Below are positions 3,119 through 49,879 of a stretch of DNA of 49,879 nucleotides, in pieces. The notes under the pieces are model-generated. The model was not told the DNA's origin. It ran no database searches and saw only the letters and a program-made list of their open reading frames with translations. Position numbers and translations under genes: made by a program. Location: contig CAIYDT010000207.1 of assembly GCA_903924985.1 (NCBI GenBank), positions 1 through 49,879 on the forward strand, written 5' to 3'. The DNA comes from an uncultured Acetobacteraceae bacterium (GTDB lineage Bacteria > Pseudomonadota > Alphaproteobacteria > Acetobacterales > Acetobacteraceae). Each line of letters starts with the position of its first letter. The stretch's first letter is position 1.

Positions 3119-4335
3119 TGGGGACGTCCACCACCACCGCCCGCGGGAAAGAACGTCACGCGCTCGCGCTAATCTGCGGCGCGCATCTGGTCAGCCACTT
3201 CCACTATTTGGTGCTGGTGCCGTTGTTCCCACTGCTGAAAGCCACCCTGGGCGTCGGCTACGTGGAGCTGGGCTTCGCGCTGACGCTGTTCAACATCACC
3301 GGTGGCCTGATCCAGACGCCGATGGGCTACGCGACGGACCGGTTCGGCGCCCGCCGCGTGCTGATCGCCGGGCTGCTGCTGGGCGGTTTCGCCTATGTCT
3401 CCCTGGGACTCTTCCCCAACTACGCCTGGATGCTGGGCGCCTCCGTGCTGCTGGGCATCGCCAACGCGGTGTACCATCCGGCGGATTATGCCATCCTGGG
3501 GTCGGTGATCGAGCCGGCGCGGCTGGGGCGGTCGTTCTCCTTGCACACTTTTTCCGGCTTCCTCGGTAGTGCGATCGCGCCGGTGGCGATGCTGGGGATG
3601 GCGCATCTTTTTGGCATGGGTCCGGCCATCGTAGCGGCGGGGGTGCTGGCCATCGTGGTCGCAATGCCTTTGCTGGCCGCCGGCTGGCTCGATCGCGCGG
3701 TCATCGCAAGCACGCCCGAGGGCTCGGCGCATATCCCGATGCGAGGATTGCTCACCCCGGCCGTGCTCAGTCTTGTGGCGTTCTTCGCATTGCTCAGCCT
3801 CAGCACCGGGGCGTTGACGAATTATTCGGCCGTGGCGTTGACTTCGCTGTACAGCATGACCCTGTCGGCAGCCAACGTGGCGCTGTCTGGCTTCCTGTTC
3901 GCCACCGCCATCGGGGTGCTGGCGGGTGGGCTTGTGGCCGATGCCACCCGCCGGCACGGCGACGTGGCTGCCTGGTGTTTCGGCGGCGCCGCGGTGCTGA
4001 TCCTGTTGGTGGGCACCATCGACCTGGGTCCTGTGTTGTTGACGCTGGCGATGACGGCGGCGGGATTCCTCTCCGGGATGATCTCGCCTTCGCGCGACAT
4101 GCTGGTGCGGGCCGCTTCGCCGCCCGGCGCCTTCGGGCGGGTGTTCGGCATCGTCACCACCGGCTTCAACATCGCCGGCACCATCGGGCCGCTGCTGGGC
4201 GGCTGGATCATGGACCACAGCCTGCCGCGCTGGGTGTTCTACTCGTCGGTGTGCTTCATGGTGGCGACGTCGCTGATGGGTCTGGCCAGCGAGCGGCGCG
4301 CTCGCCGGCAGGCCGCCTGGGGAGCAGCAGAATGA
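3118..4335 (+). CDS. MFS transporter
   Basis: This 405-aa, very hydrophobic protein has about 12 predicted membrane helices and the MFS motif A loop ([11 protein letters not shown], about residues 70-80) between helices 2 and 3. A repeat of helix pattern is visible in the C-terminal half, as expected for the two six-helix bundles. It resembles the fosmidomycin-resistance/FSR-like and YNFM-type exporters. The ATG shares its A with the TAA stop of the upstream flavin enzyme, and the 3' end overlaps the next gene by ATGA. This suggests co-expression with enzymes acting on the same compound. Direction and cargo are unknown. Confidence 0.88.
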
Positions 4336-4790
4336 CCGGATTGCCCGAAGCCGACGCCGCGACGCGCGCATTCTTCCTCCACTGGCTGGAGACGTTTTCC
4401 AGCTATGTCCGGGACGTGGATTACGCGTCTGCCAAGCCCTTGTTCCACAAGGATATCCTGGCCTTCGGCACGCACCGCGACGTGCTGCCGAGCCTGGAGG
4501 CCTGGGTGAATGCGCAGTGGGACAATGTGTGGCCAAAGACCGACGATTTCCGCTTCGATCTGGCGGCGACGCATGTGCTGGCCTCCGATGACGGGTCCAT
4601 GGCGGTGGTCGTGGCGCCATGGACGAGCACGGGTTTCCACGAGGACGGCTCCCGCTTCGACCGGCCGGGTCGCGCGACCATGGTGTTCCATAAGCGGGAC
4701 GGAACCTGGTTGGGCGTGCACACGCATCTGTCGCTGAATCGCGGCGTCCCACAGACCAGCCACGGCAACCGGCCCGTCAAGGCCCGATAA
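4332..4790 (+). CDS. SnoaL/NTF2-like domain protein
   Basis: This 152-aa protein looks like one NTF2-like alpha+beta cone: an N-terminal helical part ([25 protein letters not shown]), the [15 protein letters not shown] segment, and C-terminal strands ending in [20 protein letters not shown]. That ending is typical of SnoaL/DUF4440 polypeptides, which bind small hydrophobic ligands and sometimes act as isomerases or cyclases. It starts on the ATGA overlap with the MFS gene, so it belongs to the same transcript. No signal peptide is seen and it should be cytoplasmic. Catalytic role unknown. Confidence 0.75.
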
Positions 4791-4801
4791 GGAGAACCAC
4801 C

Positions 4802-5281
4802 ATGCGCGTTCTGTTCACTGGTTTGGCGATTGCCCTGGCATCGGGCCCTGCCTGGGCGGAGCTTCCCGTGCAGCACAGTTTGCCCGCCGCGGCGGCGGTC
4901 GTCATCGCGCAAGGCACGATCGAGAGTTGCGCCGCGAAAGGCTACGCGGTCTCGGTGGTGGTCGTGGACCAGGGCGGCAACACCGTCGTGGCACTCCGAG
5001 CGGACGGCGCCGCGCCGCACACGATGGAGAATGCACGGCGGAAGGCCTACACGGCGATGACGTTTAAGATTTCGACAACGGATTATGCCAAGCGCTATGC
5101 CGATGGAAATCCGGTGGTGCGGCAGCAGGTGACGTTGCCGAACGTGATCGCCATTCCGGGCGGGCTGCCGGTGAAGTTGGGGAATGAGGTAATTGGCGGG
5201 GTGGGCACATCGGGCTCGCCGGGGGTGGACGAGCCCTGCGTTCAGGCCGGGTTGGACAAGGCGGCGGGGCTGCTCAAATAG
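4802..5281 (+). CDS. Secreted GlcG/HbpS-family heme-binding-like protein
   Basis: This 159-aa protein has a clean Sec signal peptide (residues 1-19, cleavage after PAWA) and a GlcG/HbpS fold. The family landmarks are VSVVVVDQGGNTVVALRADGA, the ENARRKAYTAMTF helix, IPGGLPVK and the final EVIGGVGTSGSPGVDE loop. Family members bind heme or cobalamin-like ligands, or sit in glycolate and aldehyde-oxidation clusters. An AAGGAGA Shine-Dalgarno precedes the ATG, and the gene lies 11 bp after the SnoaL-like gene, so it is the last member of the 2048-5281 cluster. Likely periplasmic. The ligand is not determinable. Confidence 0.85.
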   Translation: MRVLFTGLAIALASGPAWAELPVQHSLPAAAAVVIAQGTIESCAAKGYAVSVVVVDQGGNTVVALRADGAAPHTMENARRKAYTAMTFKISTTDYAKRYADGNPVVRQQVTLPNVIAIPGGLPVKLGNEVIGGVGTSGSPGVDEPCVQAGLDKAAGLLK

Positions 5282-5447
5282 CGCTGCCGCCCATCGTCCT
5301 GCCGACGAATGCCGGCATCCCCCGGCCCACGCTCATCATCCAATCAACGTTGGGTAAAGGTCCACCCAGTCGGGGGGAGAGCGGGCGTCCCGCACGTAAT
5401 CGTGGGTCAGCCGCGGCAGCATTTCATACCGTATATGCAATCAATAC

Positions 5448-5728
5448 ATCGCGGACAATTATGCCATTCGAAAAAACAGGAAGTGAAGGATTGGCTTGCC
5501 GGGCACCCGCGCTTCCATCGGCATTTTATGCCGACATGGTCGTCGTGGTTGAATCTGGTTGGGCAGTGGTTCGACAAAATCACCACGGACAGCATTCGTC
5601 GCGGTATTTTCAAGCGTGTACCCGAACTCGAGCGGGCCATCGAAGATGACATCGATCACAACAACGCCAATCCCAAGCCCTTCGTCTGGACGAAGTCCGC
5701 CAACGACATCATCGTCGGTGAACTTTAA
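5448..5728 (+). pseudogene. IS630-family transposase C-terminal remnant
   Basis: The reading frame ending at 5728 matches the C-terminal third of IS630/Tc1-type transposases: EVKDWLAGHPRFHRHFMPTW, then SWLNLVGQWFDKIT, RRGIFKRVPELERAI and DHNNANPKPFVWT. The second catalytic Asp motif (ADNYA, about 5451-5465) sits in another frame, so a frameshift separates the two parts. In the SWLN-V-E-WF motif the catalytic Glu is Gly. The N-terminal two thirds are missing. It is a decayed, inactive fragment, and I could not identify terminal inverted repeats. The rest of the 5282-5816 spacer holds no other recognisable gene. Confidence 0.82.
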
Positions 5729-5816
5729 CATGAGACACTACACTAATAGCCGAAGGGGACCTGATCGTGGCGCTTTAGCCTTTCCCTTGGCAGCGAACCC
5801 GTGCGATGACGGGGAC

Positions 5817-6728
5817 ATGCCTGACAGCCACACGCAACAGGACGCGGCATCCGTCGCCGCCGAGCTGATCGCGGTCATCGTCGCGGTGACCGACGGGGAA
5901 CCGCGCGTGCTGACCATCGAGGCGGGACATGCCCTGCCCTCCGGCCCGTTCGAATTCGGTCACCGCTCCTTGCAGGCGGGCTTGCGGTCATGGGTGGAAC
6001 GGCAAACCCACCATCCCCTCGGCTATGTCGAGCAACTCTACACCTTCGCCGACCGCGACCGCACCGACAGCGCGGCCGAACGTGTCGTATCGATCTCCTA
6101 CCTGGGCCTGACGCGGGAGGCCCGCCTGGCGCGCGAACCGGGTGCCGGCTGGCTGAGCTGGTACCGCTTCTTCCCGTGGGAGGATTGCCGCGGCCCCGCC
6201 GTCGCCATGGCCGGAGAGCAGCTGGTTCCATTGCTGCGCGCCTGGGCCGGCACCAAGCGCGACCGCATGCACCGCCTGGCGGTCAATTTCGGCCAGGACG
6301 GCCAGCGCTGGAATGAGGAATTCGTGCTGCAGCGTTATGAGTTGATGTGGGAAGCGGGCCTTGTGCCGGAAGCCGGCGGCGCCGCGACCATTCCGGGCCA
6401 GCCCATGGCGCACGACCACCGCCGCATTCTGGCCACCGGCATCGCCCGCCTGCGCGCCAAGATCAAATACCGCCCGGTGGTGTTCGAGCTGATGCCCCCA
6501 TCGTTCACCTTGTTGCAGTTACAGCGCACGGTGGAAGCACTGGCCGGCCGCCTGCTGCACAAGCAAAATTTCCGCCGCCTGATCGATCAGCAGGACCTGG
6601 TGGAGGAAACCGGCGAGATGGCGACGGAAACCGGCGGACGCCCGGCAAAACTGTTCCGCTTCCGGCGGGAGATATTGGCCGAACGGGCCGTTATCGGCAC
6701 GAAACTACCGCTGGTGCGGGCGGTTTGA
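5817..6728 (+). CDS. NrtR-like NAD-metabolism regulator (Nudix-like domain + winged helix)
   Basis: This 303-aa protein has an N-terminal Nudix-like ligand domain (about residues 15-200) and a C-terminal winged-helix domain. The latter has the NrtR-type signature: RYRPVVFELMP-like (here KYRPVVFELMPPSFTLLQLQ), then LLHKQNFRRLI. The Nudix box glutamates (REx2EE) are absent, as expected for a sensor that no longer hydrolyses. Members of this alphaproteobacterial branch repress NAD biosynthesis genes in response to NAD-derived ligands such as ADP-ribose. No NAD genes lie next to it here, so any targets are elsewhere. The ATG at 5817 fits the domain boundary; the in-frame extension upstream runs through the IS630 remnant. 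Confidence 0.75.
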   Translation: MPDSHTQQDAASVAAELIAVIVAVTDGEPRVLTIEAGHALPSGPFEFGHRSLQAGLRSWVERQTHHPLGYVEQLYTFADRDRTDSAAERVVSISYLGLTREARLAREPGAGWLSWYRFFPWEDCRGPAVAMAGEQLVPLLRAWAGTKRDRMHRLAVNFGQDGQRWNEEFVLQRYELMWEAGLVPEAGGAATIPGQPMAHDHRRILATGIARLRAKIKYRPVVFELMPPSFTLLQLQRTVEALAGRLLHKQNFRRLIDQQDLVEETGEMATETGGRPAKLFRFRREILAERAVIGTKLPLVRAV

Positions 6729-6769
6729 TAACAACCCCGGCTATTATAAACATACAAGAACAATGAAAA

Positions 6770-6819
6770 CCTGCGTCGGATGCCGGAAGGCACCGCGCCT
6801 TTCCGCCACCCCACGCAGG
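6770..6819. terminator. Nested hairpin between convergent genes
   Basis: Two nested inverted repeats lie between the convergent nrtR-like gene and the secreted-protein gene. The outer arms are CCTGCGT (6770-6776) and ACGCAGG (6813-6819). The inner arms are CGGAAGGC (6784-6791) and GCCTTTCCG (6797-6805, one-base bulge). No long T-tract follows on either strand. It may act as a bidirectional, Rho-assisted transcription barrier; this is inference from position. Confidence 0.4.
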
Positions 6820-6870
6820 TCCGTCAGGCGGGAGGAGACCATACCGGCGTACGGCCACCCCACTGACGTA

Positions 6871-7308
6871 TCAGCCACCGCCGCCGGTCGCCTCGGACCA
6901 ACGGCGTATCGTGAACGAGGCGTTGGCACAGGCATCGCCCTTCACGTCGAGATGCGTGCTGTCGGCAGCACGTGTTCCGGTAACCGTGCCGACCGGGCCA
7001 TTTCCGAAGACCGAAGTCAGCGTCGAAGTGATCTTGCCATCGGCGGTCACATTGCCACTGATCCGGCTGATGCCGCTCATATCGCTGTAAAACGCCACAC
7101 CTTTAATCGGACCGGCCTTGTCGCGCGGGGGCGGAACGACATTCCAATCAATCATCGCACACGTTGGCCCGGCTCCCTTGGAGCGGCCGAGCCAATACGA
7201 TGTATTTGTGTCATTCCCGCCTTCCTGAGCAAAGGCGCCGGCCGCCGTCAGACCCAGCGAAACCGCGCAGCATAACGCCGCCACAGAGCCGAATATGAGC
7301 TTTCGCAT
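6871..7308 (-). CDS. Small secreted protein, paralogue 1
   Basis: This 145-aa protein has a Sec signal peptide (cleavage near residue 27, GAFA/Q) and a mature part of about 118 residues. Two cysteines (GPTCAMIDW and GDACANASF) could form a disulfide in the periplasm. I do not recognise the family. It is a clear paralogue of the gene at 7365-7817: shared features are W-GRS-G----C, W-VVP-PRD, YSDMSGIS and the final CANA-F--RW. The two genes are 56 bp apart in tandem and follow the Tae1-like amidase gene in the same direction. They are candidate periplasmic partners or immunity proteins, but that is position-based inference. Confidence 0.72.
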   Translation of the reverse strand: MRKLIFGSVAALCCAVSLGLTAAGAFAQEGGNDTNTSYWLGRSKGAGPTCAMIDWNVVPPPRDKAGPIKGVAFYSDMSGISRISGNVTADGKITSTLTSVFGNGPVGTVTGTRAADSTHLDVKGDACANASFTIRRWSEATGGGG

Positions 7309-37666: not shown

Positions 37667-38275
37667 TCAGTTACAGTCGCCCCCCGCCACCATCGCCTGA
37701 TAGCAAGTGTACCAGTTGTCCCGGAGGATCGCCTGCCCCTCGGCCAGCGACAGGGACTTTGACGGCTTCCGCCCCGACGAGAATTTGGCATTGGGCACGT
37801 CGAGGCAGATGCCATTGTGGACGAAATTCTCAACCATATCCTTTTTCTTAAACCAGCGTTGCGCCAACGTGACGCCCGCCGGCCCGCACTCCGGCCAGAT
37901 GTTATCTAGCCCGTCGCCGCCGCCGTTTTCCAGGCTGATCAGATGGTCGAGTTCACAGGTTTGGTTCTGCCCCGTGTTATTGGCGGGGTGGGGAATGTGA
38001 TAGGTTGAATACGTCTTCGCCTTCTCGGCTGCCGTCGACTCGGTGTCGCGGATCGATCCGGTGCTCCAACCCCGATTGCAAATCGTGTCGGCGATGTTGT
38101 CCTGGGTGACCGCCGGGTTCGTCTCGCCCGGCGTCAAGGTCGGATCGGGCATGATTTTGAGTTCTTGCATCCGTTCGACCGACATGTCCTGCGCGGCAGC
38201 GGGTGCGCTGGCGCTGAGGGAACTGACGCCGATCACGGTGACGGTCATGGCCAAGTAAAAGATCGAAGCTCGCAT
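37667..38275 (-). CDS. Secreted HNH-like nuclease domain protein
   Basis: This 202-aa protein has a signal peptide (about residues 1-28, ending PAAAQ) and a secreted HNH-like domain: TCELDHLISLENGGGDGLDNIWPEC, in which the D-H and N-WP residues match the core of HNH endonucleases. The classical third His is not evident. Several Cys suggest disulfides outside the cytoplasm. It may degrade extracellular or periplasmic DNA, or be a toxin-like protein. Flanked by a retroelement remnant and repeats, so possibly accessory. Nuclease activity is inferred. Confidence 0.72.
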   Translation of the reverse strand: MRASIFYLAMTVTVIGVSSLSASAPAAAQDMSVERMQELKIMPDPTLTPGETNPAVTQDNIADTICNRGWSTGSIRDTESTAAEKAKTYSTYHIPHPANNTGQNQTCELDHLISLENGGGDGLDNIWPECGPAGVTLAQRWFKKKDMVENFVHNGICLDVPNAKFSSGRKPSKSLSLAEGQAILRDNWYTCYQAMVAGGDCN

Positions 38276-39049: not shown

Positions 39050-39217
39050 CCCCCTGAAAATGGTCCTCCCTGAGGTAAGGCACATTGCCAGTTGGAGGGT
39101 CTGAAGATGGCTAGAAAGCACTACACGGTGGACGAGATCGTTGCGAAGCTTCGGCGGGCAGAGATGCTTCAATCACAGGGTCGGTCGACAGCCAACACTG
39201 TCTGTAATTTCGGCTGA
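39050..39217 (+). mobile_element. IS3-family element remnant (orfA start)
   Basis: A terminal-type sequence (CTGAAAATGGTCCTCCCTGA, about 39054-39073) precedes GGAGGGTCTGAAG and an ATG at 39107. The 36-codon frame (MARKHYTVDEIVAKLRRAEM, then LQSQGRSTANTVCNFG) matches the N-terminal HTH of IS3-family OrfA. It stops early at 39215-39217; the rest of orfA and all of orfB are missing. It is a truncated, inactive end. Confidence 0.75.
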
Positions 39218-39422: not shown

Positions 39423-42400
39423 ATGTTGTTGAGGACGGTCAGGAGCTTACTGGAGCTGCACCCAGCCGGATTGTCGAACGAGCAACTCCTATGGCGTCTC
39501 CGTAATGCAGGACTCCGCTTTTCGGCCGACGACATCCTACAGTCTCTTGGGGCCTTGATCGATAATGGCGAGGTCGCCATGGCCGAGCCGGGTCGGTGGC
39601 GGATTACGGCGTTCCGACGTGGGGTGTCCACGCTGGCGCCGGGCTCAGCCGCCGCGCGAGCACGAGCAACAAACGCACAGGAACAGCGTGTGCTGGCCGC
39701 TGTCACCGCAATCATCGCGAGGCCTCGCCCCCAGGGGGAATCCTTGTCCTTGACCGAACCCGCCGGGGGCAAGAGCGCCGATGCGGATTGGCAGGCCTTG
39801 CTGCGCTACTATGCTGCAACCCAGCGGCAGGACCCGCGGGGGAAGGTAGACGAGCGTGCCGACCAACATGCCGTCTCCTGGCAGCTCTTCCGCGCAGACG
39901 GGAACTGGTGGAATCTGGGTGAACTGCATGTTCCGCTCGATACGCTCGCCGACACGTTCTGCGAAGCCCTGATGCGGCGGCCGGAATCGGTCTGCAGCGT
40001 CGGCTACCCGGTTACCCTCTTCGTGCAGTCGGACGTGCCGGCATTTGTGCCTGGGCTGCTGCTACCGGCCGCCTACCGGGTCACGGCGTCACACCTAATT
40101 GTAGAGGTGACAGAATCCGAGCCCGTGATCAACCCGCTCTGGCTCGATATGGTCGTGAGCCGGTCGCGTTGGCAGAAGGACGCGCTGGTCGACGTCCTGT
40201 TGCCGGATGGTGATGTCGGTGATCTTGCAGATATCGCTGGCCGGCTGCGCAACAGCCTGGCGACGATAGGGGGCACGCTGCTGCGGCCGGCACAGCTTGC
40301 GGGCGAGATGACCCTTAGTGGGGAGGGAATCCGCAACGCCGCCGGCTTCTTCCTGCCGTCGGACGACCGCTTTACCCGCGGTGCGGAGCGCGATCTGGAA
40401 GCCATGCAGGCCTGGCCGGAGGAGGTCGTCCGTCATACGGCGCTGGGTCACCTGGTTACATCGCGCGGCACCACCGTATCGACGACCCGGGTCGCCTCTG
40501 GTCCGACGGCACTGACCGATCGCCAGTATGCCGCTACATCAACTGCACTTGCCGGGCCGATTACCCTGATTCAGGGGCCGCCCGGTACCGGAAAGAGCGA
40601 GGTCATCCTCGGGCTGCTGACCTCCATTGTGCTGTCGGGTGGCAGTGTTCTGCTGGCGTCGAAGAACCACCAGGCGCTGGACGAGGTCGAGGGACGACTC
40701 GCAGTGCTTGCCAACGACGCGCCGATCCTGACCAGGGGCCGCGACAGCGAGGGTGAGCGGGACACAAGCTTTCTGTCGCAAATGCGTGCTTTGGCGGACG
40801 GCGAAACCATGGCTGATGGTGTTGCGGTCGCGGATCCTACACAGGCCATACTTGAGCGCGCCCGGGCATTCCATGAATTGAACGGCACTGCCGGACGCCG
40901 GACAGCACTGAATGTGGCCCTGTCCGAGGTCGCCGAACAGCTCAGCCGTTGGAACGACGCGTTGCCGACTAGCCTGTCTGGGCGCAGCCGGTGGGTATCG
41001 ATCCTGACCCGCATCATCCGATTCGTCCTTCGCCGTGGCGGTTCCGACGCGGATACTCCGGCACGGCTTGTTAAGCTGGCCGAACGTCTTCGTCGCGAAA
41101 TTGCCGCCCTGCCGCCGACGCCAGAAGCGGCAGAATGGGATACCATCGCTGACGCCCTTGCCGCCGATGTGCGGACCGCTCTGCGCGCGAGCGCCCGCGT
41201 GCGTACCACGCCCAGCAGACCGGAGGCGGTAGCGCTCTCGCAGCGGCTGAAGGAGCTGGAATTCAACAGCAGGACGAGGCTGCCGCAGCTGACGGCCGAG
41301 GATGCGCGATGCGTCCTGCGACATCGGCCAGTATGGGCGATCAGCACCTTGTCAGTCTCGTCTCGGGTGCCGCTTGTCGCGGGACTGTTCGACTATGTCA
41401 TCTTCGACGAAGCCAGTCAGTGCGACATCGCCTCGGCCTTGCCGCTGCTTGGCAGGGCCCGTTCCGCGGTAATCGTGGGGGACCCGATGCAACTGGGCTT
41501 CATCCCGCGGCTTTCCCTGCGCCAGGAACACGCGTTGATGGACGCGGCCGGTCTGGGGCGAGTAGGCCGGCATTTGGTGGCCCAGAGCAACAACTCGCTC
41601 TTCGCCTTCGTCCGCCAGCGGGAGACGGCGCATTGGCATTTCCTGGCCGATCAGTTTCGCTCGGCGCCGGACATCGTCTCCTATCTCAACGAAGAATTCT
41701 ATGAAAGGCGCCTGCTAGCGAGCCAGGATCCACGAAGCGTCCGCCTGCCCGACGGCTACAAACCCGGAATCGCATGGCATGACGTCTCTGGCCTAGCGAC
41801 GCGCGAGGATGGGGGAAGCGTGAACCATGCCGAAGCGGACGCCGTTGTCGGGGTACTGACTGAGATGATCCGCGAGCGGGGGTTCAGCGGCAGCGTAGGC
41901 GTGCTGTCACCTTTCAACTCCCAGGTCGGCCTGCTGACCCGCCGGATCCGGGCGGCTCTCACTGAGCACGAGCAGACCCGTATCAACCTGCGCGTCTCGA
42001 CGATCGACAAGTTCCAGGGCGGCGAGGCCGACGTGATCCTGTTCTCGCTAGTGGTGGCCGAGGGCGTCCATGCTGCGACGCTCAGCTTCTATGGACGCGA
42101 GCGGCGCCGGGTGAATGTCGCCATCAGTCGGGCGCGGGCGCTATGCCTCGTCTTCGGTGACAAAGCCTTCGTGCGACGCAGTGGCATAGGTCTTCTAGCC
42201 CGGCTGGCGGAACGAACCACCCAGCCGCCGAAGCCGCGTCAGACATTCGACAGTGAATGGGAACGCCGGCTTTTCGAGGCAATGCGTGGGCGCGGGCTCG
42301 ACCCGATCCCGCAATACCCGGTGGCCGGTCGCTATCTCGACTTCGCCCTTGACCCGGAGGGACGCCGATTGGATGTCGAGGTTGATGGGCGCCGGTGGCA

Positions 42401-42557
42401 TGCGGATCCGGATGGCAACCGAAAGCTGTCCGACCGTTTGCGCGACCGGGCGATGATTGCCCTTGGCTGGAGGGTCTGCCGTTTCTGGGTGCACGAACTC
42501 GCCGACAACATGGAGGAGTGCCTTGATGTCATCGAACGCGACCTCGGCCGCACCTGA
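39423..42557 (+). CDS. UPF1-like SF1 helicase with C-terminal Vsr/DUF559-like nuclease (CnuH-like)
   Basis: This 1044-aa protein has an N-terminal winged-helix-like segment (residues 5-65), a mid region of unknown fold, and SF1 helicase motifs. Motif I is GPPGTGKSE (about 385-393), motif II is FDEAS (about 660), then VGDPMQLGFIP, LADQFRSAPDIV, STIDKFQGGEADVILFS and RRRVNVAISRAR. This is the UPF1/DNA2-like helicase layout. Residues 940-1044 are a PD-(D/E)XK nuclease of the Vsr/DUF559 kind (YLDFALD, DVEVDGRRWH). It is the first gene of a five-gene operon with McrB-like, DUF2357 and Hsp70-like proteins, as in CoCoNuT systems. DNA or RNA as target is not decided by sequence. Confidence 0.9.
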   Translation: MLLRTVRSLLELHPAGLSNEQLLWRLRNAGLRFSADDILQSLGALIDNGEVAMAEPGRWRITAFRRGVSTLAPGSAAARARATNAQEQRVLAAVTAIIARPRPQGESLSLTEPAGGKSADADWQALLRYYAATQRQDPRGKVDERADQHAVSWQLFRADGNWWNLGELHVPLDTLADTFCEALMRRPESVCSVGYPVTLFVQSDVPAFVPGLLLPAAYRVTASHLIVEVTESEPVINPLWLDMVVSRSRWQKDALVDVLLPDGDVGDLADIAGRLRNSLATIGGTLLRPAQLAGEMTLSGEGIRNAAGFFLPSDDRFTRGAERDLEAMQAWPEEVVRHTALGHLVTSRGTTVSTTRVASGPTALTDRQYAATSTALAGPITLIQGPPGTGKSEVILGLLTSIVLSGGSVLLASKNHQALDEVEGRLAVLANDAPILTRGRDSEGERDTSFLSQMRALADGETMADGVAVADPTQAILERARAFHELNGTAGRRTALNVALSEVAEQLSRWNDALPTSLSGRSRWVSILTRIIRFVLRRGGSDADTPARLVKLAERLRREIAALPPTPEAAEWDTIADALAADVRTALRASARVRTTPSRPEAVALSQRLKELEFNSRTRLPQLTAEDARCVLRHRPVWAISTLSVSSRVPLVAGLFDYVIFDEASQCDIASALPLLGRARSAVIVGDPMQLGFIPRLSLRQEHALMDAAGLGRVGRHLVAQSNNSLFAFVRQRETAHWHFLADQFRSAPDIVSYLNEEFYERRLLASQDPRSVRLPDGYKPGIAWHDVSGLATREDGGSVNHAEADAVVGVLTEMIRERGFSGSVGVLSPFNSQVGLLTRRIRAALTEHEQTRINLRVSTIDKFQGGEADVILFSLVVAEGVHAATLSFYGRERRRVNVAISRARALCLVFGDKAFVRRSGIGLLARLAERTTQPPKPRQTFDSEWERRLFEAMRGRGLDPIPQYPVAGRYLDFALDPEGRRLDVEVDGRRWHADPDGNRKLSDRLRDRAMIALGWRVCRFWVHELADNMEECLDVIERDLGRT

Positions 42558-44052
42558 GCCGAAGGGCGGCAGCCTGCTGTCGGCCCGCGCGGGCGCCGTC
42601 GCCCTTGGCGGGCTCCTGGTGGTACTCAACCTAGTGGCGGTTGGCCTGGTGCTGAACCAGCAGCAGGTGGTGGACGCGCAGCGTAGCGACATCGCGCGCG
42701 AACGGGTGGAGCTTGCGGGCGAACGCGGCAAGGTTGAGGCGGCTATCGCGCGAAGCACGGCCGCCGAAGCGCAAATGGCCGATTTGACCCGACAGATCGA
42801 TGCGCAGACCGTAGCCATGGAGCGCCAGAGGACCGAGCTGCGCGATCTCGATCAACGCAAGCGCGAAAGGGATGCCGCGATCGCAGACCGTGACGAGGCC
42901 CGCCGTGTGCAGCGCGACGCCGAGGCCGCACGCGACAAGGCTCAAATTGACTCCCGGGCCGCCGGCAACGACCGCGCCGCAGCCAGGGATGCACTGCAGG
43001 CCATGCAGGGCCAAATCACCCAGCTGGAAACAACAAAATCGGGACTCCAAAGCGAAATCGGTAGGCTGCAACGCGACAAGCAGCTGGCAGAGACAGCCCT
43101 GCGCCAGTCAAACGAAAATCTTAGGGACGCCGAGGCGAAGACGCAGATCGCTGTGCAACGCCGTGATGAAGCTCAACGTTCGCTCGAGACGGCCCAGCGC
43201 GATAGGGATGCGGCCCTTGACGCGGCGACGCATGCTAAGGCCGATCAGACGAGCGCAGAGGCGCGCCGCGCAGACATAAACAGCGCGTTGCAGCGCCTGG
43301 ATGAGCGTCAACGGCTAGCCACAGCTGACGCTGAAGCCGCAGAGACACGGCTAAAGAAAGCGCGTGTCGATCTAGCCGCCGCGCAGTCCGAACATCAGGC
43401 ATTCCTCGCAGCCGGACCGCAGCGTGAGAAGGATCTTCGCGACCGGCTCCTGGCCGCCCAGGCCGCTGCCGACCAGGCAGAGAAGAAGCGACTTGCTGCC
43501 CAACAAGAGTTCGACAACACCCAGGAGCGGCTCATGGCGGCACGTGCGGATCAGGCACGCCAGCAGAACCTTCAGGCCCAAATTGGCGCCGCTATGCAGC
43601 AGATCACCGACCTCCAGAAGCAGCAGGCAACCCTGCGCGCTGATATCGGAAGCCAGCAGAATAACATTATTCAAGGGAGTGCGACGTTGGCCAAGGCTCA
43701 AGCAGAGTCAGCAGCTTTGCACGCTAACATCAATAATTTAACGGCTCAGCGCGACCAGCTGCAACAAGACCTGGGGCAGCGTAACCAGCTCGAGCAGACT
43801 CTTAAGGATCTGAACCAGGCTATTGGTCAGAAGCGGGCCGAGATGGAGCAGGTAAGAGCCGAGGCACACCAGGCGGGGGCCGAACTCGCTGCGATGGAGC
43901 AGGAGCACGCCAACCTTGCGGCTCTCCTGCCCAGCCTGCGCGCCCGGCGAGACACCCTACAGAACGACCGTGACGCCGCCGGTGCCCCACTCGCACCACA
44001 GGCCACCCAGGCGCCGCCGAACACCGTCCCTAGCACGCGGGAGAAGCCCTGA
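42526..44052 (+). CDS. Membrane-anchored coiled-coil protein of the defence operon
   Basis: This 508-aa protein has one membrane helix (about residues 20-45, GAVALGGLLVVLNLVAVGLVL) followed by a coiled coil of about 420 residues rich in Ala, Gln, Glu, Arg and Asp, then a short Pro/Ala tail. No globular domain is seen. The ATG at 42526 has AGGAG 7 nt upstream and overlaps the helicase gene by 32 bp. The stop overlaps the next gene (TGATG). It probably spans the inner membrane and forms long rods with the next protein, which shares the architecture. Role, by analogy with CoCoNuTs, is scaffolding or signalling. Confidence 0.85.
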   Translation: MSSNATSAAPEPKGGSLLSARAGAVALGGLLVVLNLVAVGLVLNQQQVVDAQRSDIARERVELAGERGKVEAAIARSTAAEAQMADLTRQIDAQTVAMERQRTELRDLDQRKRERDAAIADRDEARRVQRDAEAARDKAQIDSRAAGNDRAAARDALQAMQGQITQLETTKSGLQSEIGRLQRDKQLAETALRQSNENLRDAEAKTQIAVQRRDEAQRSLETAQRDRDAALDAATHAKADQTSAEARRADINSALQRLDERQRLATADAEAAETRLKKARVDLAAAQSEHQAFLAAGPQREKDLRDRLLAAQAAADQAEKKRLAAQQEFDNTQERLMAARADQARQQNLQAQIGAAMQQITDLQKQQATLRADIGSQQNNIIQGSATLAKAQAESAALHANINNLTAQRDQLQQDLGQRNQLEQTLKDLNQAIGQKRAEMEQVRAEAHQAGAELAAMEQEHANLAALLPSLRARRDTLQNDRDAAGAPLAPQATQAPPNTVPSTREKP

Positions 44053-46322
44053 TGCCGTTGATCCCGATCGGGCAGACCTTCTGGGCCGTGGCCGTCATCG
44101 TCCTCGCCGTGGCCTTGGGCGTTCTTGCTATCGCTGTGATCTGGAGCTTCGAGCGGCGGCGGGCCCGCCAGCCCGATGCGACACGCTACGAAGACCTTAA
44201 GGAGCGCGCAGCGGCCATCGAGGTGCGCATTCGGGAGCGCGAGGACCTGCTGCGAGAGATCGACCAGAGGATCCACGACCGCGACCGTATCGGCGCCGAA
44301 GTCGCCGCACTGACCGAGCGGCGGGATAACCTTCGCGTCGAGCTAGACGCCCTTGCCGGCGCCGAACAGCAGATCGAGGCGATGAAGCAGCGCGCCGCCG
44401 ACGCGGCGGCGGCTTTCGCGGTCGAGACTGCAAAGCTCGATGAAGTGAAGCTGGCACTGCAAGAAACGGCGGGCCACCTCACAGAGGCGCAGAACCGTCT
44501 TGACCGGTTGAAGAAGGATGCGGACGAGCTGGAAGGTCGGAACAAGACGCTCCGGGAGACGCTGCCGGGTGAGATCGAGGAGCTGCACGCCAGACTGGTA
44601 GAACTCGTCAACGAAAAGGCCGTACTCGACAAGGAAATCTCGCAACTCAGGGGTGTGCGAGAATCGCTGTTCGCCGCCCGCGAGGAGACCGCCGCCCTGG
44701 CCGTGCGGAACGATGCGCTGGAGGCCCGATACAAAGAGCTCCGTGAGACGCTTCCGGAAGAGACGAAGGGGCTGATCGACGAGCTGGCCCGCCTGCGCAC
44801 CGAGCGGGAGGCGCTCGGACAAGAGATCGCGGAGGTTCAGGTCACGCGCGAGTCGGTGCTTGCCGCGCGCGAAGAGATCGCCTTTCTGGCTGCACGGATC
44901 GAAGCACTGAACCGGGAGATCGACGTGGCGCGCAAGACCCACGAGGACCTGCTCAGCGGCGCGGAGCTTGAAAGGCCGCGGCAGGAGCGCGTGCAACTCA
45001 TGGACGAGATCGGCACGCTCAGGGCCGAGCGCGCGAGCCTAGAGCAGATGGCAACAAAGGCTACATTGGAAGAGAACATCGCGCGCCTGCGGGGTGATGC
45101 TAGCGGCGTGACCGCTGGCGGCCCTGACCCCGCAACCGTTGCCGCTGATCTGGCGCAACTGCCACCCTGTCTTGTCTCCGTCCCTTCGGCGGCGTATCCG
45201 CCGCAGCTCGAGAGGGAAGCGCTGCACGACGTCGCGGTGCACCTTGCTGGCCTGAGCCTGCGCTATGATCAGCGCACTCTCTACGCCTTCCACACGGCGC
45301 TCAAGATTAACGAGACGTCGCAGATGACGGTGCTTGCCGGCGTCTCGGGCACCGGCAAAAGTCTGCTGCCGCGCCGCTATGCTGAGGCCATGGGGCTGCA
45401 TTTCCTGCAGATCTCCGTCGAGCCGCGCTGGGACAGTCCGCAGGATTTACTTGGTTTCTACAACTACATCGAAAAGCGCTATCGGGCGACGGATCTGGCT
45501 AGGGCGCTCGTCCATATGGACCCATATAACACCTCCGGGCTGTCGGACCGCCCGCACAGCGATGAGGTGATGCTGGTGTTGCTGGACGAGATGAACCTCG
45601 CGCGCGTTGAGTATTATTTCTCCGAGTTTCTCAGTCGGCTTGAGGTGCGCCCGCGCTTGGCCGAAGCTGCGAACGCGGAGCGGCGGTCCGGCGCGTGCCT
45701 GCCGATCGACATCCCCGGCCGGGCGGAAGGGCCGATCCGTCTGTTCCCATCCCACAACGTGCTGTTCGCTGGAACGATGAATGACGACGAGAGTACGCAA
45801 TCCCTGTCAGACAAGGTACTGGATCGGAGCAACGTGATGCAGTTCGCGGCCCCCGACCGGTTTGCCCGGCCCGTTGATGGCCAGCCCGCCGCTGCCATGG
45901 GTCGGTATCGTAGCTTCCGGGAATGGCAAAAGTGGATCCGTCCGGCCGACCAGCTTGCAGGCGGGGAGCGGGACAAGGTCGAACGGGTCATCGGCAAGCT
46001 TGCCCAGATCATGAAGGACTGCGGTCGCCCGTTTGGCCACCGACTGAACGAGGCGATGCTGGCCTATGTGGCGAACTATCCACGCGACAAGGGTATGGCG
46101 GTCGACCTGCCGCTGGCTGATCAGATTGAGCTTCGCATCCTCCCGAAGCTACGTGGCCTGACCATTGAGGGCCATGAGCAGCCGTTTGACGACCTCAACA
46201 AGCTGATCGGCGAGGACCTCGGCGACAGGCACCTTGCAGAAATGCTGGAGCACACTGTCGATCGCCAGGGGGGCAGCAATGGCCAGTTCAGCTGGCGCGG
46301 CTTTAGCCGCGGGCAGGCTTGA
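44052..46322 (+). CDS. Membrane-anchored coiled-coil McrB-type AAA+ ATPase/GTPase (CnuB-like)
   Basis: This 756-aa protein has a membrane helix (about residues 10-32), a coiled coil (about 45-340) and a McrB-like AAA+ motor (about 380-740). Walker A is GVSGTGKSLLPRRYAEAM (about 430). McrB-type segments are ISVEPRWDSPQDLLGFYNY, Walker B VLLDEMNLARVEYYFSEFLSRLE (about 510), and GTMNDDESTQSLSDKVLDRSN, which holds the MNxxD element. McrB hexamers hydrolyse GTP and drive the McrC nuclease. Here the motor is tethered to the membrane by a long stalk, unlike E. coli McrB. TGATG overlap with the preceding gene. Confidence 0.88.
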   Translation: MPLIPIGQTFWAVAVIVLAVALGVLAIAVIWSFERRRARQPDATRYEDLKERAAAIEVRIREREDLLREIDQRIHDRDRIGAEVAALTERRDNLRVELDALAGAEQQIEAMKQRAADAAAAFAVETAKLDEVKLALQETAGHLTEAQNRLDRLKKDADELEGRNKTLRETLPGEIEELHARLVELVNEKAVLDKEISQLRGVRESLFAAREETAALAVRNDALEARYKELRETLPEETKGLIDELARLRTEREALGQEIAEVQVTRESVLAAREEIAFLAARIEALNREIDVARKTHEDLLSGAELERPRQERVQLMDEIGTLRAERASLEQMATKATLEENIARLRGDASGVTAGGPDPATVAADLAQLPPCLVSVPSAAYPPQLEREALHDVAVHLAGLSLRYDQRTLYAFHTALKINETSQMTVLAGVSGTGKSLLPRRYAEAMGLHFLQISVEPRWDSPQDLLGFYNYIEKRYRATDLARALVHMDPYNTSGLSDRPHSDEVMLVLLDEMNLARVEYYFSEFLSRLEVRPRLAEAANAERRSGACLPIDIPGRAEGPIRLFPSHNVLFAGTMNDDESTQSLSDKVLDRSNVMQFAAPDRFARPVDGQPAAAMGRYRSFREWQKWIRPADQLAGGERDKVERVIGKLAQIMKDCGRPFGHRLNEAMLAYVANYPRDKGMAVDLPLADQIELRILPKLRGLTIEGHEQPFDDLNKLIGEDLGDRHLAEMLEHTVDRQGGSNGQFSWRGFSRGQA

Positions 46323-46327
46323 GCCAA

Positions 46328-47890
46328 ATGCCAGGGATCGAGCTCTGGCACCGACCTTGGGCCCGACTCGGAAAAGAAGGGCGCGACTATCGCTTCCTGC
46401 GCCCGGACAAGCCTGACCCTGCGCGAGGGCACGCCGACTCGATCCGGGTATGCACGGATATCCCGGGTGGGCCGGTTGTCGACGGCCGGATAGGCAGCGG
46501 CAAAGAAGTTCAAAACCTCGGAGACGGCAGGCGAGTGTATGCCATGCCGGTGCCTCTACGCGCCTCCGCGGGCATGACAGTCGGCGTGGGGGCCAGCAGT
46601 GTGCGGCTCGTCTTTGACGAGATTCCCGACCGCCCACCCGAGGGCCTGGAGCCCACGACCGATCGACAACGCGAGGCGATTGCCCTGCTCGATCGCGTGA
46701 AGGCAGTCTGGGCGCGGCTACGCGAAGTGGAATCAGCGATCGCCGACCCGGCGACCATCTGGGAGCGACTGACCGCACTGTGGCTGGCCGACGACCAGGC
46801 AGCGAACCCGGAGATGGACATCATCGTCAGCCAGGCACGCCAACTGCTGGCGACCCTCGAGTTGCTAGACCGCGCACCCCGCCGCATCCTGCGCCGCACA
46901 CTCCGAATGATCCCACTCTCGCGTGTGCAAGAAATTGACCGTCGGGCGATGAGCTGGTTGGTCCGTCAGCCCGGCGAAACAATGGCCGAGCGCGCTGGTA
47001 GCCGCCAAAAGATCAGCGCCATCGCACGAGAAGAGAACTTCGACACGCTGGAGAACCGGGTTCTACGCAGCTATGCTCAGCTCGCGGCAACAATCGCCCG
47101 CGAATACGTTGCCAAGCATCCCGCCGTCACCAACTCCAGGCGGGTACTGCTCGTCGGCAAGTTCGGCAAGCGCTGCCGGCAATTGGAGGCGGATCTGGCG
47201 GAGCGCGGCGTCGGCGAGGCCAAAGCCGATGCCACGCCCAACTTCGTGCTGCAGAACAACGCCAACTACCGCAAGATCTGGGATGCCTGGATGACGCTTC
47301 GCGGGCGGGAACGCGTACTCGACGAACTCTGGCGCTGGCAGGCCCGGTCCTGGGAGGAGTTCTGCGCTCTTGCGCTCGTGGTGGCGTTGCAGTCGATCCC
47401 GGGAGCGCGCCTTATCGCGACCTCGCCGCTCGTCTTTCGCGACGAGCAAGAACAGGGCTGCTGGCTTCGTCATGTCAACCCGCTGGCCGTGTTCTTCTTG
47501 CGGGAACAGGATGTGACGGTCGAAGTCTCCTACGGAACTCCGAGCGGACGCACCCTGCACAAGTTTGGTGCGCCGATCTGGCTACGGTTTGGCCCCGTCG
47601 GGGACAATACCTTTCTCCTGCGCTGGGCGGTTTGGCCGATCTGGCATGCGAAGGGTGGGTTGGAGAAGGAGGATATAGCCGCAATCACGCCACTGCTGTC
47701 GGAAGGCAGGAACGAATTCGTGCGCGGTGGGATTTCCATCCGGCCGGTGGCCGCAGATGGCGGTCCCCAAAGCGAGAGTTCGGACAAAGCTGCGTGCCTG
47801 ACGATCGGACCTTCCGGCAGGGCCCTCGGCAGCGGCATCGGGCTTCTGCGTGACCTGCTGGTCCACAACGTTCTGCGCGGGGCCGACTGA
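46328..47890 (+). CDS. DUF2357/McrC-like protein (CnuC-like)
   Basis: This 520-aa protein matches DUF2357 proteins that accompany McrB-like motors. A beta-rich N-terminal part (1-120) is followed by helices and the family segment EENFDTLENRVLRSYAQLAATI (about residues 235-256), and a WEEFCALALV region (about 345). McrC homologues carry a PD-(D/E)XK nuclease, but I cannot find its D-(D/E)xK triad here; the C-terminal part may be a degenerate or very divergent nuclease. The ATG at 46328 is preferred; a TTG at 46319 overlaps the upstream stop. It probably caps the AAA+ ring encoded by the preceding gene. Confidence 0.8.
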   Translation: MPGIELWHRPWARLGKEGRDYRFLRPDKPDPARGHADSIRVCTDIPGGPVVDGRIGSGKEVQNLGDGRRVYAMPVPLRASAGMTVGVGASSVRLVFDEIPDRPPEGLEPTTDRQREAIALLDRVKAVWARLREVESAIADPATIWERLTALWLADDQAANPEMDIIVSQARQLLATLELLDRAPRRILRRTLRMIPLSRVQEIDRRAMSWLVRQPGETMAERAGSRQKISAIAREENFDTLENRVLRSYAQLAATIAREYVAKHPAVTNSRRVLLVGKFGKRCRQLEADLAERGVGEAKADATPNFVLQNNANYRKIWDAWMTLRGRERVLDELWRWQARSWEEFCALALVVALQSIPGARLIATSPLVFRDEQEQGCWLRHVNPLAVFFLREQDVTVEVSYGTPSGRTLHKFGAPIWLRFGPVGDNTFLLRWAVWPIWHAKGGLEKEDIAAITPLLSEGRNEFVRGGISIRPVAADGGPQSESSDKAACLTIGPSGRALGSGIGLLRDLLVHNVLRGAD

Positions 47891-49833
47891 TGCGCCGCCC
47901 GGTCGGTCTCGATGTCAACGGCTGGCGAGATTACAGCTGCCGGGACTGGTCGGCGGAGGATCCGGACGCGCCGGCGGGGGCGCCGGTCACACTCGACGGC
48001 GGCATCCTGTCGGTTATTGTCCAGGATGACGACCTTCTGGTGGGTGGGCCGCAGGCAATCCTCTCACCTATCGGCCGCGGCCAGGGCTGGAGTGACATCG
48101 GCGCCGCAAGCAAGCGGCGTAACCTTGCTGACCACTGGTCCGCCCTGCTGGCCGGCACGACCGGACACGGCTTCGACGGAGACATGCTTGCGGCCGCACG
48201 TGCGCTGTCGCAGTTAGCCGACCAGCGGATCATCTGCATGCCCGACCATGCAGGAATGGGTGAGGCACAGCAGAAGCGCCTACTCGCCGCACTCTCTGGC
48301 CCTCGTGAACCGCGACCCGTCTTACTCTGGCGGTCGGTCGCACTGGTGCTTGGCCTGCTCGAGGGCGGCGGCCTGGCGGAGGCGGCGGATGGGATGCGGA
48401 TCGCCTGTCTGATCCATGGAGCTGACGGGATCGAACGTCAGCATCTTGTCCTGCGGCGCCTCGCCGAACATCAGGATCGGCTTGCACCGGAACGGGCTGG
48501 GCCGGGCGATGTCTGCTGTCCCATGCTCGGGCTTGTGGGCCTGCGGGCCCGGGCTGTCGAGGCCGTTGAAGCGGCCAATCCTGTGCTGAGGGATACGCGG
48601 ACCGACACACCGAGGATGGCTGCCGAACTGCTGTTTCGAGACGCGCCTTTGTACGGCGAAGAAATCGTCCGCCGCATCAACAGCAATTGGCTTATGTTGC
48701 GTACACCACATGACTTTGTGCTGTTGGACTTGGCGGAAGCAATTGCAGAAGTTTCCGTCGATGCAGATCTTGTCGTGCTGCTCTCGCCGTTGGCCGCCCG
48801 CCATCGTGACCGGTTGGGCGACGGGCTGACCGCAAGCGGAGCCGGTCGATCCGTCATCGTGGCGAACTCCGACACCGCGGCCCGCGGTGCTTTGTTCGCC
48901 GCACGACGCATCGAGCGGGGCATTCCGCACTACCTCGACCACCTTGACCAGATCTCTCTCATCGTCATGCGCGGCAATGGGCCGACATTCGAGGACTTGG
49001 TTCCAACGAACGCGATAGTGCCAGGCAACCGCGAATACATCTCCGCTCCGATCACCAGCATGGTCTGGACGGCTGGGATGGCTGATGTGCAGTTCTACGT
49101 CCGCAAGGGCCCTCGCGAGATCCGCCGTTGGGTGACACAGACACAGGCCGCGCCCGAGCGGGATGAGCGGCTGGAGATCCATCTTCGGCAGATGCCGGCA
49201 CAGGGCTGGGCAAAACTTTCGATCAGCTCGCCTGACTGGGATGCACTGCGCCGCGCACCAATCCATCTCGACTGGGGCGCATTGTCAGTCGATCCGCGCT
49301 CGGAAGGAGACATTCTTGCCTCACTCGAGCGTCCGCGCCCGGTCGTTCCTCAGCGCGTGCATTATGCAGCGCACGTCGGCCTCTGGGATGGTTCCCTGCG
49401 ACACCCGGGTATCCGCGCGGTGCTGCAATCGTTCACAACGGATGTTCCGTCGAGCCTCAAGAACCTGGCCGATTCAATCCGTGCCTCTTTCCGGGTAGAG
49501 ATACCGGGATCGGGGGAACGTTTGTCTAAAACGGTGTACCCGGTCGGAACAGACGGCGAGTTGCCCGATACACTCGATGAAGCCGTTCAACGGCAATTCG
49601 ACGACGTGATTAACCACGTCACCAAGAGTCTGTTGCAAGCAATCAAACGGCGGAGCCCTATACTCGACAACAATCACGCCCTCCTTTGTTTGTCTTGGAT
49701 CTTCGCGCGATGTCCTCTGGATGTGCAGCACGAAATGGTCGCGGCACTCAATGCCATCCGGTCTAGCCCATCTTATTCACCGCATAGCAGGGATTCAGAA
49801 ACGGGCATGGTACAACCATCTGGAATCGCTTAG
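47890..49833 (+). CDS. Hsp70-like protein of the defence operon, probably frameshifted near its end
   Basis: This 647-aa protein recalls distant Hsp70/actin-fold proteins: an N-terminal G-D-N start (MRRPVGLDVNG), VVLLSPLAARHRDRL, and the diagnostic ARGALFAARRIERGIPHYLDHL followed by ISLIVMRGNGPTFEDLVP, which resemble the end of the Hsp70 ATPase domain and the start of a substrate-binding beta domain. RNA-binding Hsp70-like proteins are reported in type III CoCoNuTs. TGATG joins it to the DUF2357 gene. The final 20 residues look non-protein-like, while the frame starting near 49751 reads GLAHLIHRIAGIQKRAWYNH and runs off the window, so the real protein may be longer. Confidence 0.75.
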   Translation: MRRPVGLDVNGWRDYSCRDWSAEDPDAPAGAPVTLDGGILSVIVQDDDLLVGGPQAILSPIGRGQGWSDIGAASKRRNLADHWSALLAGTTGHGFDGDMLAAARALSQLADQRIICMPDHAGMGEAQQKRLLAALSGPREPRPVLLWRSVALVLGLLEGGGLAEAADGMRIACLIHGADGIERQHLVLRRLAEHQDRLAPERAGPGDVCCPMLGLVGLRARAVEAVEAANPVLRDTRTDTPRMAAELLFRDAPLYGEEIVRRINSNWLMLRTPHDFVLLDLAEAIAEVSVDADLVVLLSPLAARHRDRLGDGLTASGAGRSVIVANSDTAARGALFAARRIERGIPHYLDHLDQISLIVMRGNGPTFEDLVPTNAIVPGNREYISAPITSMVWTAGMADVQFYVRKGPREIRRWVTQTQAAPERDERLEIHLRQMPAQGWAKLSISSPDWDALRRAPIHLDWGALSVDPRSEGDILASLERPRPVVPQRVHYAAHVGLWDGSLRHPGIRAVLQSFTTDVPSSLKNLADSIRASFRVEIPGSGERLSKTVYPVGTDGELPDTLDEAVQRQFDDVINHVTKSLLQAIKRRSPILDNNHALLCLSWIFARCPLDVQHEMVAALNAIRSSPSYSPHSRDSETGMVQPSGIA

Positions 49834-49879
49834 AGATTGGGTGCTGACGCCACTCTCCAGCCCCGGACAGAATCTGCCA
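49834..49879 (+). other. Window edge
   Basis: The 46 bases after the annotated stop contain no independent gene start. They remain open in the alternative frame described for the Hsp70-like gene. Confidence 0.5.

Follow-up and report, generated by a model that had tools for sequence, protein, structure and literature searches.

What is the run of five genes that closes this contig, and is it a known kind of defence system or something new? The stretch analysed here (the window) is the entire 49,879-nt contig CAIYDT010000207.1 of an uncultured Acetobacteraceae bacterium (assembly GCA_903924985.1). The listing of its open reading frames (ORFs) includes five long ones that follow each other end to end on the plus strand, with short overlaps, from 39423 to 49833; they are called cnuH, cnuA, cnuB, cnuC, and cnuD here (Table 1). 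The answer favored, at a probability of about 0.88, is that they form a Type III-B CoCoNuT (coiled-coil nuclease tandem), a predicted defence system derived from McrBC, with the general build proposed for it. Support comes from domain searches, gene order, a CnuB tree, phyletic range, and structure models that resemble McrC and DnaK. The main text of the eLife paper by Bell et al. (2024; PMC11090510) gives Type III-B a Vsr-like nuclease fused to CnuH, a separate coiled-coil CnuA, and a separate Hsp70-like CnuD, with a winged helix-turn-helix (wHTH) at the CnuH N-terminus and an OB fold; it places III-B and III-C mainly in Alphaproteobacteria and Cyanobacteriota. CoCoNuTs in general are marked by an McrB-like domain in which NxD, as a rule with E or D next, replaces NxxD, and RNA as their target is a published prediction.

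The five-gene array is a genuine operon-like set rather than a chance one, because its gene order is conserved across other genomes. When species genomes were scanned with CnuB, 31 loci emerged, of which 22 are alphaproteobacterial and nine cyanobacterial. Searches by tblastn, using the window proteins as queries, located CnuC and CnuD at all 22 alphaproteobacterial loci and CnuH at 19, figures biased toward co-occurrence by the collection of loci via CnuB; at the three without CnuH (L004, L020, and L028), CnuB lies close to the contig start. Gene order is identical in all 19 relatives holding both cnuH and cnuB, and in one annotated plasmid copy as well; intact copies include those of Siculibacillus lacustris (L002) and Rhizobium leguminosarum (L058). 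The cnuH and cnuA genes overlap in 20 of 20 cases (by 4–143 nt, according to which start the script picked), and the remaining junctions are short or overlapping.

CnuH matches the Pfam families AAA_12 (7.5e-34), AAA_11 (2.2e-18), and MTES_1575 (1.1e-11), and its best profile matches in the PDB are SEN1 (3.8e-39) and UPF1 (about 6e-30). The nuclease domain taken alone matches MTES_1575 at 2.7e-13, and its motif columns are kept in all 16 aligned CnuH sequences, from an alignment that left out L010–L013. As to its Vsr-like character, the matches are to MTES_1575 and DUF559, with Vsr proper matched weakly and in L002 alone (0.069). A predicted UPF1-like helicase with a directly fused, putatively Vsr-like PD-(D/E)xK nuclease agrees with the III-B description. 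A conserved 60-residue pattern at the N-terminus looks wHTH-like by eye, with no supporting Pfam match in any of the four proteins tested. Mokosh and Hhe were considered as identities and rejected: PADLOC gives MkoA at 3.2e-55 and Hhe at 2.8e-20, but with partial coverage of the models (helicase or nuclease parts), and the other four operon genes match no PADLOC model of those systems.

CnuB matches Pfam AAA_5 (2.2e-5) and PADLOC PDC-M26A (1.3e-36), and hhalign relates it to E. coli McrB (E 2.3e-5, probability 76). PDB sequences searched with profiles of whole-length CnuB and of its AAA domain alone returned coiled coils and weak P-loop matches, and no McrB. Where E. coli McrB reads NTAD, CnuB has the NxD signature, which places it, as judged by motif, in the McrB clade that defines CoCoNuT. 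Residues 43–348 have matches to SMC/Rad50-type coiled coils, every one of them below the curated cut-offs; a home-made heptad scan rose above shuffled sequences in one coiled-coil window (101–200) but also in one AAA window, and is weak support. In a CnuB tree made without the reference sequences of PMC11090510 and without CoCoPALM sequences, the window copy falls within a 20-row alphaproteobacterial clade (support 99/97). A larger group of 30 rows (99/98) joins the alphaproteobacterial rows to the nine cyanobacterial ones and to a TerY-P-associated copy (L057), whose fork with the III-B rows is weak (82/63). The placement of the outgroups is unreliable because of long branches, and L028 was left out since its ORF has no Walker A. 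On this phylogeny, CnuB would belong inside the III-B branch, which is mostly alphaproteobacterial.

Part of what a sequence-only reading of the window had proposed is borne out by these results. The ORF coordinates agree with its one-strand, overlapping set of five genes, and the gene order in relatives with its expectation that the five co-occur in other genomes. Its relation of the AAA+ protein to McrB holds by motif, hhalign, and tree. Domain searches, models, and tree also uphold its call of a Type III CoCoNuT, with the five parts correctly named.

Wherever both cnuH and cnuB are present (20 loci, the window included), a long ORF of CnuA build with a hydrophobic segment at its N-terminus separates them, and the sequence itself is divergent: tblastn with window CnuA finds just one of the 22 alphaproteobacterial loci (L002). 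Its matches in Pfam, PADLOC, and NCBIfam are of coiled-coil type only, the coiled-coil models falling below curated cut-offs, and a stretch of 285 residues is free of proline. A separate, probably coiled-coil CnuA with no other recognizable domain is as described for III-B. The sequence-only reading had suggested that such a coiled coil, on a gene apart from the AAA+ protein, might make a new composition. This idea was rejected: a separate CnuA, a separate CnuD, and a fused nuclease already describe III-B in the main text of PMC11090510, so that a coiled coil on its own gene is not new.

CnuC matches Pfam DUF2357 at 1.3e-8. Its AlphaFold2 model has a predicted local distance difference test score (pLDDT) of 81, with McrC chains as its top structural matches. 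Searches of PDB sequences gave a best E of 0.031, taken as chance matches, and hhalign against E. coli McrC gave a probability of 0.9 and no usable match, so the link to McrC rests on DUF2357 and the structure model. The E-x-K position reads E399-x-not-K in all 17 rows, which leaves CnuC short of the catalytic Lys. An Ig-like beta-sandwich, DUF2357, and an inactivated nuclease fold are together the CnuC expected of III-B. In locus L028, from a Loktanella metagenome-assembled genome, cnuC and cnuD share one open frame of 1292 amino acids (3190–7068), perhaps a natural fusion of the two as in Type III-A, with sequencing error as the alternative.

For CnuD, the structure model of a homologue 43% identical to the window protein has the DnaK-like Hsp70 fold, and PDB sequences offered no useful match (best E 0.43). 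A separate Hsp70-like CnuD with a HEAT-like C-terminus again agrees with III-B, but the window copy of the gene is broken. From about 49764 the sequence matches 18 further long places in its own genome, at 91–100% identity; at least 15 of these lie within 25 bases of a contig end, and one (contig C15, 91%) is internal. For 12 other copies a single common boundary follows unrelated flanks. As this element begins at 49764 and the contig ends inside it, the ORF end at 49833, which had been taken for the natural end of the fifth gene with the break unnoticed, is not native: cnuD breaks off near codon 625, and the element supplies the final 23 codons of the ORF. Complete CnuD ORFs of relatives mostly have 781–850 residues, and the window protein is short of roughly 170–200 at its C-terminus. 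What has been lost is the greater part of the helical C-terminus, which the main text of PMC11090510 describes as HEAT-like. The C-terminus of a relative's CnuD found nothing in the window genome at E 0.1 and was found in three of three control genomes. The repeated element is probably transposable; a plasmid collection held no match to it, and beside the internal copy no adjoining ORF of at least 150 amino acids was recognized as a transposase. Because cnuD is interrupted, this copy of the system is probably weakened or dead rather than fully working, and it is unsuitable as a test copy.

Table 1. Features of the operon and of the element that interrupts it, in window coordinates.
Feature	Position	Strand	Description
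cnuH	39423-42557	+	1044 amino acids; UPF1-like SF1 helicase and C-terminal Vsr-like (MTES_1575/DUF559) nuclease
CnuH nuclease domain	42243-42539	+	Acidic and His motif residues intact
cnuA	42526-44052	+	Predicted membrane-anchored coiled coil; ORF from TTG 42457, with ATG 42526 the likely start
CnuA hydrophobic anchor segment	42598-42654	+	Kyte-Doolittle 2.67; reached by 0 of 2000 shuffles
cnuB	44052-46322	+	756 amino acids; N-terminal anchor, coiled coil, McrB-like AAA+ with NxD
CnuB hydrophobic anchor segment	44085-44141	+	Kyte-Doolittle 3.18; reached by 0 of 2000 shuffles
CnuB Walker A, GVSGTGKS	45339-45362	+	Seven of eight residues invariant across 17 rows
CnuB NxD signature (N-D-D, then E)	45780-45788	+	N577, D579, and E580 invariant in 17 of 17 rows
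cnuC	46319-47890	+	523 amino acids; start TTG 46319 or ATG 46328; beta-sandwich, DUF2357, McrC-like domain
cnuD	47890-49763	+	Hsp70-like nucleotide-binding and substrate-binding domains and first C-terminal helices; 3' part missing
ORF opening with cnuD, including element-derived tail	47890-49833	+	647 amino acids
Repeated, probably transposable element, its end	49764-49879		Interrupts cnuD and terminates contig

Both coiled-coil proteins begin with a hydrophobic segment, as the sequence-only reading had supposed in calling them membrane proteins, and the intact relatives examined all have it too. Close to the N-terminus, the highest Kyte-Doolittle mean over 19 residues is 1.85–2.81 for CnuA (17 of 17 distinct sequences with an intact start) and 2.44–3.23 for CnuB (18 of 18), counts that leave out L004, L020, and L028 (gene start lost at the edge of a contig, or a broken CnuB frame) and take L010–L013 once, as these share identical CnuB, CnuA, CnuC, and CnuD. 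In shuffle tests on three rows of each protein, the observed hydropathy was reached by 0–7 of 2000 shuffles. For comparison, the value is -0.24 for L057 CnuB, 0.31–1.54 for seven further McrB-like proteins taken from plasmids and a single genome, and 0.79 for E. coli McrB. The ORF at the CnuA position of L028 has no anchor, but it opens near the contig edge. The CnuB segment has no K or R before it and one to six in the next 15 residues in 16 of 17 rows with an intact start, a charge pattern that fits a cytoplasmic AAA+ domain; the exception (L019) is read from an earlier start. Among the nine cyanobacterial CnuB, six have an N-terminal hydrophobic segment (L022, L025, L026, L029, L030, and L031; 1.86–2.12) and three score -0.03 to 1.58. 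With six of nine beginning in this way, membrane anchoring may extend to III-C.

The anchors bear on two other identities for the operon. In the main text of PMC11090510, no word begins with "membrane", and the six occurrences of "transmembrane" refer to other proteins or stand in a cited title; conserved anchors on CnuA and CnuB are thus new relative to that text, though its figures or supplements may hold them. This silence could be taken to mean a new CoCoNuT type distinct from III-B, with the coiled coil on its own gene and the proteins in the membrane, the more so as the comparison was made without that paper's own III-B sequences. Such a type is very unlikely, however: each III-B trait with a clear test result was found, the relatives belong to the lineage named for III-B in the paper's main text, and the anchors, present across the alphaproteobacterial rows, look like a III-B trait rather than the sign of a separate type. 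The second identity is a CoCoPALM-like system, in which an McrB GTPase is fused to an FtsB-like membrane and coiled-coil segment and accompanied by genes of the signal-peptidase family. CnuB does have a putative membrane segment followed by a coiled coil, as the same main text describes for CoCoPALM, but this identity is highly improbable. The UPF1-like helicase-nuclease and the separate Hsp70-like protein are tied there to Type III, none of the five genes has a Pfam match to the signal-peptidase family, and CnuB groups with the cyanobacterial copies and with L057, beside phosphatase and kinase genes, in a tree that holds no CoCoPALM sequences.

If the operon is a Type III-B CoCoNuT, how does it compare with its neighbors among known systems? 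It shares with III-B, as given in the main text of PMC11090510, the nuclease fused to CnuH, the separate CnuA, an NxD CnuB, an inactive CnuC, the separate CnuD, the absence of any TerY-P found, and an alphaproteobacterial host; it differs in the conserved anchors and in the interruption of cnuD in the window genome. The subtype itself is already known from that paper as a predicted defence system, and these two differences are what is new. The nine cyanobacterial loci, labelled Type III-C from taxonomy alone, share the 30-row CnuB group and the N-terminal hydrophobic segment noted above for six of them, and seven have a CnuC-like match, but none matches window CnuH or CnuD at E 1e-5. An elongated wHTH-PLD protein takes the place of the Vsr fusion as III-C effector in the PMC11090510 main text. 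L057, from an Enterobacter plasmid and labelled Type II or III-A from its annotated phosphatase and kinase genes, likewise has an AAA-domain helicase gene and an McrB-like CnuB with NxD; unlike the window operon, it has the phosphatase, kinase, and a further gene between helicase and CnuB, and its CnuB has no N-terminal anchor. An IS21-like element lies between its McrB-like gene and its DUF2357 gene. The E. coli McrBC system has the same AAA+ core and McrC partner fold, but with the NxxD motif in McrB, an active McrC nuclease, and no coiled coil, helicase, or Hsp70. Druantia I and II, treated as Type IV CoCoNuTs in a 2025 preprint on YprA (PMC12458937), also have a CnuB homologue in a defence operon, with an extended coiled coil on that of Druantia II, but by the same account they have a YprA-like helicase and an inactivated CnuB.

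The system is patchily distributed. It is also rare: across an even draw of 385 genomes from the class, the one genome with CnuD is that of the window, and two have the CnuB AAA domain, the weaker match at 1.1e-30. Among 297 genomes of a second family, CnuD was found in five and CnuB in three, all three holding both on the same contig; one of the other two CnuD is a fragment, and the other is an N-truncated orphan. Defence genes were matched beside five of 11 sampled relatives: Shedu (L017), Type I restriction-modification subunits (L005 and L016), an Orf5/Type IV enzyme-like protein (L005), Cas1 (L002), and PD-Lambda-1 (L015). The flank scan took 20 of 75 flanking ORFs, long ones picked by eye from the 11 loci, with no control set; eight had no match at 1e-10, and for several of the rest the matches were confined to helicase-type or partial models. 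On a Rhizobium leguminosarum plasmid the operon adjoins genes annotated as a Shedu nuclease and a restriction endonuclease. UPF1-like and Hsp70-like parts also occur in RNA surveillance and proteostasis, and the five genes might be read as a housekeeping RNA- or membrane-stress module instead of phage defence. This is unlikely given the patchiness just described, the carriage on a plasmid, the defence genes nearby, and the interruption and decay of the system in single genomes. In its favor, no laboratory study or assay of a Type III-B CoCoNuT was found in the open-licence literature searched.

That lack of a study also counts against identifying the operon as a III-B defence system, and several other observations weigh on the same side. 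No defence gene was recognized by Pfam among 20 tested upstream ORFs of the window. The orphan gene (G457; L074, 12069–14252) is CnuD-like and N-truncated, with the other four operon genes absent within the 17.5 kb taken; it is a decayed copy. In four Rhizobium loci with identical operon proteins (L010–L013), CnuH appears as two tblastn pieces and a 732-residue ORF, which points to a break or a change of frame in its 5' part. The fold assigned to CnuD comes from the model of a relative and not of the truncated window protein. As for the anchors, they come from a hydropathy scan, which is not proof of membrane insertion; the 17 CnuA and 18 CnuB rows include several near-copies (e.g., L016/L018 and L017/L058); and the charges flanking the CnuA segment point in both directions among relatives.

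Parts, folds or families, order, conservation, and family membership are demonstrated for the operon, and a way of working can be proposed beside them. CnuB would sit at the inner membrane by its N-terminal anchor, with the coiled coil and a ring of McrB-like NTPase domains in the cytoplasm. CnuC, its nuclease activity presumably lost, would bind this ring as McrC binds McrB and drive its cycle, and CnuA would act as a second membrane coiled coil that organizes the complex. CnuD might help to recognize or hold the target, either RNA or a nascent-chain complex, and the CnuH helicase-nuclease would be the effector, unwinding and cutting nucleic acid. The membrane tether could position surveillance at the point of entry of phage nucleic acid or at the site of early phage protein synthesis. 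That III-B systems, and perhaps III-C, are membrane-resident in this way, with two anchored coiled-coil proteins holding the NTPase while CnuH, as the cutter of RNA or DNA, and CnuD, as the recognizer, watch the site of phage entry or protein synthesis, is put forward tentatively, at somewhat short of an even chance. Should the coiled coil of CnuA lie in the periplasm, which the flanking charges in some rhizobial relatives would permit, it could also sense the envelope during infection. With conserved anchors on both coiled-coil proteins, III-B would have to be pictured as tethered to the membrane instead of as a soluble complex that targets RNA.

No kinase, phosphatase, or VWA match (the TerY-P triad) was found in the five operon genes and two upstream ORFs; downstream of the operon the contig ends. 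Of 20 upstream ORFs in the first 35 kb, 15 match metabolic, transport, TPR, or other housekeeping families and five are without a Pfam match. Directly 5' of cnuH, a 36-codon ORF (39107–39214) resembles the start of an IS3-type orfA, without support from Pfam. On the minus strand at 37667–38275, a short protein with no Pfam match looks, by eye, HNH-like in sequence and signal-like at its N-terminus. The G+C content of the operon is 0.63–0.65, as in the remaining window except its first 2 kb (0.52).

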